Part shown: piece after piece, positions 1-4,063 of the stretch | How the letters are laid out: the number at the start of each line of letters is the position of its first letter | Position numbering within the stretch: position 1 is the stretch's first letter | From: Defluviicoccus sp. | GTDB lineage: Bacteria > Pseudomonadota > Alphaproteobacteria > MPNO01 | Assembly: GCA_022823775.1 (NCBI GenBank) | Contig: JAJEHI010000069.1 | Coordinates: 1 to 39,767, forward strand | Length of the DNA stretch: 39,767 nucleotides | Direction of reading: 5' to 3' | Translations under genes and position numbers: made by a program | Notes under the pieces: model-generated | Told to the model about the DNA's origin: nothing | Database searches by the model: none | Seen by the model: only the letters and a program-made list of their open reading frames with translations

Positions 1-392
1 AAGAGCAGGCGGTGGCCCGCGCGCGGCTCGGAGGGCTCGCGCGCCGCCCGGCCCGGGTGCTCTCGGCCGGCGAGCAGCAGCGCCTCGCGGTCGCCCGCGC
101 GCTCGCCTGCGGCCCCGACCTCCTGTTCCTCGACGAGCCGACGGCGAGCCTCGACCCGGCCTCGACCCAGGCGGTGGAGCGGCTGGTCCTGGAGGCGCAG
201 GAGAGCGGCGTCGCGGTGGTCACGGTGACCCACGACGCGGGCCAGGCGCGCCGGCTCGCCGACGAGCTGGTGTTCCTCCACGCCGGCCGGGTGGCCGAGG
301 CGGGGAGCGTCGCGCGGGTGCTCGAGGCGCCGCGCTCCGAGGCCGCGCGCGCCTGGCTGGAGGGCCGGATCTGGCTCGGGGAGGCGGGATGA
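1..392 (+). CDS. tupC: Tungstate-type ABC transporter ATP-binding protein (TupC-like), 5' end outside window
   Basis: This is the C-terminal half of an ABC transporter ATPase; the reading frame is open to the left edge, so the Walker A region lies outside the window. Visible motifs are the signature LSAGEQQ (about nt 60-80), a Walker B of LLFLDEP (about nt 120-141) followed by a D-loop, and the switch histidine in TVTHD. The stop overlaps the start of the TupA-like gene by ATGA, so the two are translationally coupled. The partner makes a tungstate (or molybdate) importer the best assignment, by family knowledge and context; the ATPase alone would only say 'ABC importer'. The missing upstream gene is expected to be the permease TupB. 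Confidence 0.85.
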   Translation, partial: EQAVARARLGGLARRPARVLSAGEQQRLAVARALACGPDLLFLDEPTASLDPASTQAVERLVLEAQESGVAVVTVTHDAGQARRLADELVFLHAGRVAEAGSVARVLEAPRSEAARAWLEGRIWLGEAG

Positions 393-1213
393 TCCGGCGC
401 GCGCTGGCCCTGCTCCTCGCGCTCGGGCTCGCCGCCCCGGCCGCGGCGGAGCGGTTCATCGTCGTCCAGTCGACCACGTCGACCCGGAACTCGGGCCTGT
501 TCGACCGCATCCTGCCGATCTTCCGCGAGACGACCGGGATCGAGGCGCGCGTCGTCGCGGTCGGCACCGGCCAGGCGATCCGCAACGCCTCCCGGGGCGA
601 CGGCGACGTGCTCCTGGTGCACGACACCGGCGCCGAGGAAAGGTTCGTCGCCGAGGGCCACGGCACCGCGCGCCACGACGTGATGTACAACGACTTCGTG
701 ATCGTCGGCCCGCCCGCCGACCCGGCCCGCATCGCCGGCACCCGGGACGCCGCCGCCGCGCTCTCCGCCATCGCCCGGGCCCGGGCGGCGTTCGCGTCGC
801 GCGGCGACGACAGCGGCACCCACAAGGCCGAGCTCCGCCTGTGGCGGGCGGCCGGGATCGACCCGGCGGCGCATTCCGGCACCTGGTACCGCGAGACCGG
901 CTCCGGCATGGGGGCGACGCTCAACGTCGGCATCGGCATGGGCGCCTACGTGCTGAGCGACCGCGCGACCTGGATCGCCTTCGGCAACCGGCGGCGCCAC
1001 CGGATCGCGGTCGAGGGCGACGCCAGGCTGTTCAACCAGTACGGCGTCGTCGCCGTCAGCCCGGCGCGCCACCCCCGCGCGAAGGCGGCGCTCGCCCGGC
1101 AATTCGTCGACTGGATCCTGTCGGCCGAGGGTCAGGCCGCCATCGCGTCCCACCGGATCGGCGGGCGGCAGCTGTTCTTCCCCAACGCGAGGCGGCGAAA
1201 CGATGCCGAGTAG
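389..1213 (+). CDS. tupA: Tungstate ABC transporter substrate-binding protein (TupA)
   Basis: This 274-residue periplasmic binding protein is predicted to capture tungstate (possibly molybdate) and deliver it to the TupBC importer. Residues 1-20 form a signal peptide with an AAA cleavage motif. The mature start carries the oxyanion-binding STTSTRNSGL segment (residues about 28-37), followed by GTGQAIRNASRGDGDVLL, both typical of TupA/WtpA-type proteins. Length is normal for the family. The ATG overlaps the stop of the upstream ATPase, giving the order ATPase then binding protein. The specificity for tungstate over molybdate is inferred from family resemblance and not proven by sequence. Confidence 0.9.
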   Translation: MIRRALALLLALGLAAPAAAERFIVVQSTTSTRNSGLFDRILPIFRETTGIEARVVAVGTGQAIRNASRGDGDVLLVHDTGAEERFVAEGHGTARHDVMYNDFVIVGPPADPARIAGTRDAAAALSAIARARAAFASRGDDSGTHKAELRLWRAAGIDPAAHSGTWYRETGSGMGATLNVGIGMGAYVLSDRATWIAFGNRRRHRIAVEGDARLFNQYGVVAVSPARHPRAKAALARQFVDWILSAEGQAAIASHRIGGRQLFFPNARRRNDAE

Positions 1214-1352
1214 ACAAATTAATGATTACCAGAGAAAAACGGCATTGGAACTTATGACGCCTCGGTGCCAGATTCCACCCGTCCGGTCGGCATTCGGCCA
1301 CACCGGGCGAGTGATAACCCAGCAACGCGTAGTCATTTCAAGGAGCACAGAT

Positions 1353-1532
1353 ATGAGCATTCGGAAACAGGCAAATGTCGACAGGCGCGACCGCGCGGCG
1401 GGGAACGGGCGGGGACGCCGCATCCTGGCCGCGACGGGGCTGGCGGTGGCGGTCGCGGTCGTGGCGGCCTTCGCGCTCACCGGCAACCCGGAACCGGCGC
1501 AGGCGTGCCTGTTCCCCGGTATCCCCTGCTAG
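1353..1532 (+). CDS. 59-residue secreted or membrane peptide with C-terminal Cys-X6-Cys
   Basis: I do not recognise this gene. The ATG is preceded by a good ribosome binding site, AAGGAG at 1340-1345, with a 7-nt spacer, so the start is well supported even though the frame is open further upstream. The product has a basic N-terminus (residues 1-23, rich in Arg), a hydrophobic segment (about residues 24-43), then NPEPAQA and a terminal CLFPGIPC. The AQA just before the first cysteine looks like a signal peptidase I site; cleavage there would release an octapeptide with cysteine at both ends. The PAQAC could alternatively be a weak lipobox. A perfect terminator follows 30 nt later. It lies between a tungstate-type and a BtuF/MolA-type transporter. 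Coding status is supported by the RBS, signal-like hydrophobicity and terminator; function is unknown. Confidence 0.7.
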   Translation: MSIRKQANVDRRDRAAGNGRGRRILAATGLAVAVAVVAAFALTGNPEPAQACLFPGIPC

Positions 1533-1562
1533 CGGCGGTTTTCTCCCTTGTCGTCCGGCGGC

Positions 1563-1599
1563 GCGGCCGGCGGGTTCCCACCCGCCGGCCGCTTTTTTT
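1563..1599 (+). terminator. Rho-independent terminator after the small peptide gene
   Basis: A perfect 12-bp GC-only stem (1563-1574 with 1581-1592) and a 6-nt loop (TTCCCA) are followed by seven T residues (1593-1599). This is the clearest intrinsic terminator in the window. It ends transcription of the peptide gene and separates it from the downstream binding-protein gene. Confidence 0.92.
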
Positions 1600-1656
1600 C
1601 GCCCTTCCCCCGCCCGCCGGGGTAATGCACAAAGGGGATACGACAACGGAGCCCGG

Positions 1657-2694
1657 ATGACCGCCCGCACCCTTTTCGCCGCGCTCGCCTGCCTCGCGCT
1701 TCTCGCCGCGCGGGCGGAGGCCCTCACGGTGACCGATTCGGCCGGGCGCACGGTCGAGATCCCCGACACGGTCTCCCGCGTCTTCGCGTCCGGCCCGCCG
1801 GCGGCGATCATGCTCTATGCGGTGAGGCCCGAGGTGCTGCTCGGCTGGCCGCGGGCGCTCAGGGACTACGAGAAGCCCTATATCGCGGCGCCCTACCGCG
1901 AGCTGCCGGAGACCGGGCGGCTCACCGGGCGGGGCGGAGAGGCGAACCTGGAGCGCGTGCTGGCGCTGAAGCCCGACCTGATCGTCGATTTCGGCTCGGT
2001 GCGCGGCACCTATATCGACCTCGCCGACCGGGTGCAGGAACAGACCGGCATCCCCTACATCCTGGTGAACGGGCGTTTCGCCGAGACCGCGAAGTCGCTC
2101 CGCCTGGTCGGCCGGGCGCTCGGCGTGCCGCAACGCGGCGAGGCGCTGGCGCGCGACGTGGAAGAGACCTTCGCCGCGCTCGATCGCGCGCTCGGCGCGG
2201 TGCCGGTCTCCAGGCGCCCCCGCGTCTACCTCGCGCGCGGGCCTGACGGGCTCGAGACCGGGCTCAAGGGCTCGATCAACACCGAGATCATCGAGCGCGC
2301 CGGCGGGCGCAACGTGGCCGAGGTGCAAGGCCGTTACGGCCTCGTCCAGGCCTCGCCCGAGCAGGTGATCGTCGCCGATCCCGACACCATCGTGACCTGG
2401 GACCGCATCTTCTACGCCCGCGTCTGGCGCGACCGCTTGTGGCGGGGGATCGAGGCAGTCCGGCGGGGGCGGGTCTATCTCTCGCCGACCGCGCCTTTCG
2501 GCTGGATCGACCGGCCGCCCTCGGTCAACCGGCTGATGGGACTGAAGTGGCTCGCGGGCCTGTTCTACCCGGATCGCTGGACGGGCGATTTGCGCGCCGA
2601 TACCGCGGCGTTCTACCGGCTCTGGTACCGCGTCGACCTCGGCGACGCCGAGCTCGACCGCCTGCTCGAATGGGCCGGGGGCCGCGCGCCCTGA
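1657..2694 (+). CDS. Class II ABC transporter substrate-binding protein (BtuF/FecB/MolA family)
   Basis: This 345-residue periplasmic binding protein has a signal peptide in residues 1-22 (ending near ARAEA). It then has the typical opening VTDSAGRTVEIPDTVSRV of the helical-backbone binding proteins that serve iron-siderophore, heme, cobalamin or molybdate importers, and later LERVLALKPDLIV and a C-terminal tryptophan-rich lobe. Start ATG 1657 is chosen because the signal peptide begins there; the frame is open further upstream through the peptide gene. It heads a set with the permease and ATPase downstream (372 bp gap with an inverted repeat). The ligand is not settled. The tungstate genes upstream and the molybdate-type regulator downstream make a MolA-like role attractive; the cobalamin island further along makes BtuF possible. 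Confidence 0.85.
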   Translation: MTARTLFAALACLALLAARAEALTVTDSAGRTVEIPDTVSRVFASGPPAAIMLYAVRPEVLLGWPRALRDYEKPYIAAPYRELPETGRLTGRGGEANLERVLALKPDLIVDFGSVRGTYIDLADRVQEQTGIPYILVNGRFAETAKSLRLVGRALGVPQRGEALARDVEETFAALDRALGAVPVSRRPRVYLARGPDGLETGLKGSINTEIIERAGGRNVAEVQGRYGLVQASPEQVIVADPDTIVTWDRIFYARVWRDRLWRGIEAVRRGRVYLSPTAPFGWIDRPPSVNRLMGLKWLAGLFYPDRWTGDLRADTAAFYRLWYRVDLGDAELDRLLEWAGGRAP

Positions 2695-2831
2695 GCGCGC
2701 CGGGGCGCGAGGCTTGAGTACAGGCGGGTTTCCGACGGTTCGCGCGAGTCGGGACGCGGACTTACGAGCGCCGGCATCGCCCGTCGCCATCACCGGGGTC
2801 GCCCCGGTCTCCCCGGTCGTCACCCCCCGCT

Positions 2832-2941
2832 GTCACCCCGGCCTTGTGCCGGGGTCCAGGCCTGCCCCGGACCGTGATCCGGGGGAAGCCGGGCGAGAGC
2901 GGTCGCTGACAGTCTGGACCCCGGCACAGGGCCGGGGTGAC
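2832..2941. repeat. Long intergenic inverted repeat, type A
   Basis: Two 28-nt arms (2832-2859 and 2914-2941) are reverse complements with a single mismatch; they begin GTCACCCCGGCC and end at GGGGTCCAG, around a 54-nt centre. This composition is typical of interspersed palindromic elements common between genes in alphaproteobacteria. It occupies much of the 373-bp gap between the binding protein and permease genes (2695-3067). The rest of that gap shows no gene; a short 7-bp hairpin at 2792-2808 lacks a T-tract. Confidence 0.85.
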
Positions 2942-3067
2942 ACGCTTGGGGACAGCGGCGGCGCGGGCTCATCCTCGACGCTTGGTGAGAAATTCAGGCT
3001 GGACGGGGTAGGGTAGGGCAATGCGCGGCGGCGGCGATGGAGGGGATCGGATGAGGAGGCGGCGGCG

Positions 3068-4063
3068 TTGACGACGGGCCGGTCGCGGACGTCGCTCTGG
3101 CTCGTTGCCGCCCTGGTCGCCGGCTCGTTCGGGGCGTTGACGGTCGGGCCCTATCCGCTCGGGCTGGGCGAGGCGATTTCGATTCTCGCGGGCGGCGGGG
3201 GGGAGGGGAGGGCGGAGACCGTGCTGCTCTCGATCCGGCTTCCCCGGGTGACGGCCGCGCTGCTGGTGGGCGCGGCGCTCGCCGCGGCCGGGGCGTGCTA
3301 CCAGACGCTGTTCCGCAACCCGCTGGTCTCGCCCGACATCCTCGGCGTCTCGGCGGGCGCGGGCCTCGGCGCGGTGCTCGGGATCTTCCTGTCGCTGCCG
3401 GTCGTCGCGATCCAGCTCATGGGGTTCGCGGGCGGGCTCGGGGCGGTGGCGCTGGTGGGATTCGTCGCGGCCTCGGTGCGGGTCGGCGACCGCACGCTGA
3501 TCCTGGTGCTCGCCGGGGTGGTGGTGGGCGCGCTGACGGGCGCCGCGACCTCGCTCCTCAAGGTTCTCGCCGATCCCTACGACCAGCTGCCCGCGATCAC
3601 CTTCTGGCTGCTCGGCAGCCTGGCCGGCGTGAAGACCGAGGACATCCTGCCCGCCGCGCCGGTCGTGCTGGCCGGGCTGGTCCCGCTGGTGCTGCTGCGC
3701 TGGCGGATCAACGTGCTGGCGCTCGGCGACGAGGAGGCGCGCGCGCTCGGCGTAGAGGCGGGCAGGCTCCGCCCGGTGGTCATCGTCTGCGCCACGCTGA
3801 TCACGGCGAGCGTCGTCGCGGTCGCTGGCGTGGTCGGCTGGGTCGGGCTGGTGATCCCGCATATCGCGCGGATGATCGTGGGACCCGGCTTCGGGCGGCT
3901 TCTGCCGGCCGCGGCGCTCCTCGGCGCGGGCTACATGCTCGCCGTCGACACGCTCGCGCGCACGATCTCCGCCGTCGAGGTGCCGCTCGGGATCCTCACC
4001 GCGGTGGTCGGCGCGCCGTTCTTCCTCTGGCTGCTCGGGCGGGGGCGTCGGGTATGGGCATGA
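3068..4063 (+). CDS. Class II ABC transporter permease (BtuC/FecD/MolB family)
   Basis: This 331-residue inner-membrane permease has many hydrophobic helices. It carries family landmarks LSIRLPRVTAALLVGAALA, then RNPLVSPDILGVSAGAGLGA in the first third, and GLVIPHIARMIVGP near the C-terminus, the coupling region that contacts the ATPase. The TTG start is preferred because AGGAGG (3054-3059) sits 8 nt upstream and no in-frame ATG or GTG occurs before the upstream in-frame stop. The downstream ATPase overlaps its stop. With the binding protein upstream it forms a complete importer for a bulky chelate or for an oxyanion. The permease sequence does not by itself tell cobalamin, iron chelate or molybdate apart. 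Confidence 0.9.
   Translation: MTTGRSRTSLWLVAALVAGSFGALTVGPYPLGLGEAISILAGGGGEGRAETVLLSIRLPRVTAALLVGAALAAAGACYQTLFRNPLVSPDILGVSAGAGLGAVLGIFLSLPVVAIQLMGFAGGLGAVALVGFVAASVRVGDRTLILVLAGVVVGALTGAATSLLKVLADPYDQLPAITFWLLGSLAGVKTEDILPAAPVVLAGLVPLVLLRWRINVLALGDEEARALGVEAGRLRPVVIVCATLITASVVAVAGVVGWVGLVIPHIARMIVGPGFGRLLPAAALLGAGYMLAVDTLARTISAVEVPLGILTAVVGAPFFLWLLGRGRRVWA

Follow-up and report, generated by a model that had tools for sequence, protein, structure and literature searches.

An undescribed family of very small alphaproteobacterial genes encoding a short, probably exported two-cysteine peptide

The gene at positions 1353–1532

The DNA analysed here, hereafter the window, is a stretch of 39,767 nucleotides from Defluviicoccus sp. 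(contig JAJEHI010000069.1). It carries a real gene of 59 codons at positions 1353–1532 of the forward strand, the product of which is MSIRKQANVDRRDRAAGNGRGRRILAATGLAVAVAVVAAFALTGNPEPAQACLFPGIPC, followed by the stop. The gene and its surroundings comprise the following features.

1220–1250, forward strand: upstream box TAATG-N18-CATTGGAA (family consensus TTATG-N18-TATTGGA), conserved and read as a putative activator site plus −35 element
1269–1274, forward strand: −10-like CAGATT, 18 nt past TTGGAA; position kept in much of the family, promoter role putative
1280–1308, forward strand: predicted hairpin near the predicted mRNA 5′ end, beginning at the conserved GTCCGGT, with GTCCGG at a fixed distance
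1340–1345, forward strand: AAGGAG ribosome binding site, 7 nt 5′ of the ATG, with comparable sites in relatives
1353–1505, forward strand: leader with basic N-region, hydrophobic segment (residues 24–42) and NPEPAQA c-region; dN/dS of the type I leader about 1
1506–1529, forward strand: C-terminal octapeptide CLFPGIPC after a predicted A-Q-A cleavage site; tail kept, with dN/dS about 0.1 in type I
1563–1599, forward strand: hairpin followed by T7, the predicted intrinsic terminator of the peptide unit; a hairpin lies 3′ of the stop in all copies

The initial annotation had described a 59-residue gene with a strong ribosome binding site, and this was confirmed by the AAGGAG element and by relatives with conserved ends; the basic N-terminus, the single hydrophobic segment and the AQA followed by CLFPGIPC are likewise as it described them. 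The N-region ahead of the hydrophobic segment comprises 23 residues with a net charge of +6, and the hydropathy maximum falls on residues 24–42 (19 residues, mean 2.57). A chance ORF is unlikely, since the relatives keep their C-terminal ends and the tail codons of the type I set change mostly synonymously. A longer in-frame ORF opening at 1203 was rejected as the gene because it contains the conserved, promoter-like box (at about 1220), and the ATG served by the ribosome binding site is the one at 1353. The terminator hairpin is G+C-rich, with 13 bp (1563–1592), and is followed by seven T. The terminator with its T run stands for the window copy only; in most other copies the hairpin is as strong but has no long T tract.

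A Pfam search gave no confident family match for the peptide, and DUF2946 was absent even among the weak matches; a literature search found no paper carrying these peptide sequences. No Rfam family reached the gathering score in the window. The sub-threshold Rfam matches lie mostly on the terminator hairpin, and the weak antisense-RNA-like ones at 1559–1646 overlap it.

Family members

Besides the window's genome, at least seven alphaproteobacterial genomes have relatives of the gene, one of them being that of the sister species Defluviicoccus sp. bin129 (G001). Among 97 related genomes, a protein search gave one clear relative, L112, in bin129 (MPNO01000034.1), which also holds a second copy at a contig edge, ending ACFLGIPCW. 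A scan of 84,980 species genomes for the pattern PA-x-A-C-x3-GIPC returned 85 stretches, five of which (L077, L081, L098, L112 and L129) have a plausible leader by translation; L081, L098 and L129 were obtained through this pattern, which fixes part of the tail. The protein of L077 (JAJEEA010000486.1) is identical to the window peptide; its 3.4-kb contig, 98% identical to window 393–3767, sits in a Vicinamibacteria MAG and is probably mis-binned. A profile search around L129, in which the pattern was not used, added L176, L177, L178 and L180, the last being a second copy within the genome of L129. The family extends to further genera and probably to a second order, since L129's genome would belong to an order other than that of the window's. 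Each genome holds one to three copies, some of them decayed. Conserved C-terminal residues behind variable leaders, which the initial annotation had named as the support to look for, are thus found among the relatives. Together, these loci constitute a family of tiny bacterial genes that has not been described before and whose product, a short two-cysteine peptide, is probably exported.

Searches of plasmid and viral contigs gave no relatives. Pattern matches in three genomes (G081, G319 and G384), together with two more in bin129, have no signal-like leader and were not accepted as members. The ACALFGVPC matches in genome G004 also have no such leader and were read as a mobile repeat: an exact repeat lies at 13 sites (L040 and others), many of them about 150 nt or less from contig ends, and ends in a chance ACALFGVPC frame, so that it is probably a mobile-element end that breaks the assembly.

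Peptide anatomy and selection

Full-length members have 58–63 residues, with an N-region of 23–28 residues (net charge +3 to +7) and a hydrophobic segment of mean hydropathy 2.5–2.8 across 19 residues. A helix-breaking c-region comes 3–6 residues past the hydrophobic segment, and A-x-A precedes the first cysteine in every full-length copy. The copies end in PA-x-A, then C-x(5-6)-C, sometimes with one extra aromatic residue; the tail variants are CLFPGIPC, CLLPGIPC, CFLGIPCW, CFFGIPCF and CLIFDYIC, with cysteine first and either last or next to last. The basic N-region, the hydrophobic core and the small residues at −3 and −1 agree with a substrate of Sec and signal peptidase I, for which cleavage is predicted. 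The initial annotation had also suggested a lipopeptide; however, the lipobox [LVI][ASTVI][GAS]C (PS51257) was matched by none of 12 members, and a lipoprotein processed by signal peptidase II was rejected.

The initial annotation had further proposed a dN/dS comparison. In the type I set, where L081, L098 and L129 had been selected on part of the tail, dN/dS was 0.09 for the tail and 1.26 for the leader, and none of 20,000 codon-column permutations reached the observed tail conservation. Formal significance applies to this set only: the sets obtained without the pattern point in the same direction (significance values of 0.09 for the window and L112, 0.18 for type II) and are not significant alone. 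These codon comparisons indicate that the type I tail is under purifying selection and the leader is not. The leader of L178 is near that of L129, yet its tail is CLIFDYIC instead of CLLPGIPC, i.e., the loop has been swapped with both cysteines retained.

In three copies, L081b (ending PAQARCPGIPCR), L186 and L187 (ending PAQACLLDIPCR), the box, the hairpins and most of the tail are kept and the hydrophobic segment is gone, meaning either that these copies are dying or that export is not essential. We read them as probable decaying duplicates because L186 shows, in our reading of its sequence, a hydrophobic-looking stretch in another frame; alternatively, the three may be functional cytoplasmic peptides.

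Promoter box and box-linked loci

All complete copies carry TTATG (or TAATG, CTATG, TTATA), N18 and TATTGGA (or CATTGGA, TATTTGA, TATTAG) at about 85–130 nt from the start codon. Many also have a CAnATT-like element 18 nt past TTGGAA, with GTCCGG shortly after; the assignment of these elements to a −35/−10 pair is putative. Past the stop codon, every copy has a strong hairpin, the long T run being found in the window copy only. Across eight genomes, the box pattern gave 17 matches versus none for a reversed control pattern. Twelve of the 17 precede members of the peptide family, decayed ones counted, and the other five lie ahead of L188 (a hydrophobic peptide), L198 (a LysR-like gene) and three loci devoid of an ORF (L192, L199 and L203).

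At L188 (1597–1701, forward strand), the box lies ahead of a different peptide of 34 residues, MILKSKQSLMSVAWLALLVAVIVVAGIEPALAAR, which is hydrophobic and has no cysteines. The three ORF-less loci (from about 1501 onward, minus strand) come from three genomes, are mutually similar and share the same promoter box. They have a GCATAAG-like inverted repeat across the box, end in a GGGACGGCTGCCT hairpin, have no Rfam match and have type I secretion or RTX-like genes close by, and they are regarded as candidate small RNAs.

Genomic neighbourhood

The initial annotation had placed the gene between a TupA gene and a class II binding protein gene, and both do flank it; however, the TupA-like protein (389–1213) reaches 198 bits where the curated cut-off is 400, and its tungstate specificity is therefore not assured. 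On the other side, the class II (Peripla_BP_2) binding protein is accompanied by FecCD and an ATPase, and beyond this importer come cobalamin biosynthesis genes in a cluster (CobN, CbiD, CobQ, CobT, CbtA and others).

Within the 1.4 Mb of bin129 that was examined, contig C54 carries tupA, btuF, btuC, btuD and a multicopper oxidase in the window order, the tupA–btuF–btuC–btuD block having about 82% DNA identity to the window. The alignment blocks cover window 3–1195 and 1602–2713 and beyond, and 1196–1601 is absent, a gap that coincides almost exactly with the peptide unit. The tupA–btuF interval of bin129 has other genes and no such peptide, and bin129's own peptide copies lie elsewhere. In that interval (L268, 7594–8124), there are a gene for an HTH-regulator-like protein and, on the opposite strand, a small membrane-protein-like ORF.

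Relatives had been expected near tupA or btuF/molA genes, but copies elsewhere adjoin gcvT and other unrelated genes. In three genomes, the gcvT neighbour has a tandem glycine riboswitch, which is separate from and downstream of the peptide gene; among 12 related loci, no Rfam family other than glycine riboswitches reached the gathering score. Further neighbours are a molybdopterin oxidoreductase, diacylglycerol kinase, hydantoinase B, an AMP-binding (acyl-CoA) ligase and a Gp49-like gene, and another copy adjoins an ABC exporter next to methylmalonyl-CoA mutase. The downstream gene is convergent in L112, L029 and L186, and no receptor, exporter or immunity gene was found linked to the peptide gene. 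Attenuation of a downstream gene by a leader peptide was rejected because the downstream genes differ or converge. Judged by these arrangements, the gene brings its own conserved promoter to varied genome sites and, since it moves about the genome in this way, is not specially tied to adjacent metal importers. The coupling to a neighbouring Mo/W or metal-chelate importer that had been suggested fails on the bin129 synteny, the unrelated neighbours elsewhere and the cobalamin cluster.

Interpretation

We consider it an even bet that the window gene is free-standing and separately regulated, encoding a small propeptide that would be exported, cleaved and closed into a disulfide loop acting in trans. 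The basic N-region and hydrophobic segment would direct the peptide to SecYEG, and signal peptidase I would cut after A-x-A. The freed peptide would then form a periplasmic disulfide loop, a 26-membered ring in the case of C-x6-C, which may act in trans, either as a small signal or on the envelope, with its specificity between the cysteines. Export and cleavage are favoured by the invariant A-x-A and by the selection on the tail in type I, and the disulfide loop is favoured because both cysteines bracket a variable loop.

The main rival, a real but smaller possibility, is a mini-protein that stays uncleaved, spans the membrane once (N inside, C outside) and has its cysteines in a short periplasmic tail; it may be a stress peptide or resemble a type I toxin. 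Its size, basic N-terminus and hydrophobicity would suit this, as would the several copies at unrelated intergenic sites and the use of the same box for the cysteine-free L188 peptide; however, it is the tail that is constrained in type I, the hydrophobic segment having no detectable amino-acid constraint, the A-x-A motif does not vary, and sequence analysis found no antisense partner. That the locus works primarily as a regulatory RNA, with the ORF secondary (a dual-function RNA), seems improbable: the box ahead of ORF-less, transcript-like loci in three genomes and the predicted folds at the 5′ and 3′ ends are consistent with it, but a pure RNA function leaves the synonymous variation of the tail codons unexplained.

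A nascent peptide of the CutF/CruR type, which would sense metal or redox state and control the downstream gene via ribosome stalling and the stem-loop, is quite improbable. CutF likewise has a signal-like leader, a pair of cysteines, prolines close to its end and a stem-loop past the stop, but such a sensor is disfavoured because the conserved downstream target that it needs is absent, the next gene even being convergent at three loci; moreover, the gcvT copies carry a riboswitch of their own downstream, and there is no DUF2946 match. The initial annotation's own proposal, a secreted metallophore taken back by the adjacent TupABC or BtuFCD importer, is very improbable indeed. It draws on the two thiols of the octapeptide, the importer adjacent in the window and the molybdopterin oxidoreductase adjoining the bin129 copy, against which stand the bin129 importers without a peptide at that place, the copies beside gcvT and further unrelated genes, and the place of the window importer in a cobalamin cluster.

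Returning to the exported, looped propeptide, a wider reading is tentative and rather doubtful: the undescribed alphaproteobacterial family may consist of exported disulfide-looped mini-peptides that signal between cells or at the envelope, their specificity set by the loop variants, and may belong to a dedicated regulon together with small RNAs and other tiny membrane peptides. If the product is a signal peptide of this sort, it would be one of the rare peptide signals that Gram-negative bacteria make on ribosomes. Genes so small are usually missed by annotation; this family is defined by its selection signature, shared promoter box and changing position, so that mass spectrometry can be used to look for its product and promoter pull-down to look for its regulator.

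Comparison with known systems

CutF of Rhodobacter capsulatus (DUF2946) is a small exported protein with a cysteine pair, C-terminal prolines and a stem-loop 3′ of its gene (PMC9973294). The present peptide is likewise small, alphaproteobacterial and predicted to be exported, and it shares the cysteine pair, the prolines towards the C-terminus and the stem-loop. However, it has neither DUF2946 nor a conserved downstream metal-homeostasis gene, and its gene occurs at several unrelated sites with its own promoter box and post-stop hairpin.

Hok is a type I toxin with one membrane span, an N-in/C-out topology, a cysteine in the outer tail and structured mRNA ends. The family resembles it in size, in expected topology, in the outer-tail cysteine, in the structured ends of the mRNA and in the presence of several copies, but differs in that the constraint lies on the tail and the invariant A-x-A rather than on the span, and no antisense RNA was found. 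In the agr AIP and the signal-sequence-derived pheromones of Gram-positive bacteria, the part that is conserved is a short stretch at the C-terminus of a small precursor, and its loop varies from species to species. The present family shares such a conserved segment, with loop variation between conserved cysteines; in contrast to those systems, its genes have no adjacent processing, receptor or exporter genes and are found in Gram-negative hosts, and the loop would be closed by a disulfide rather than a thiolactone.
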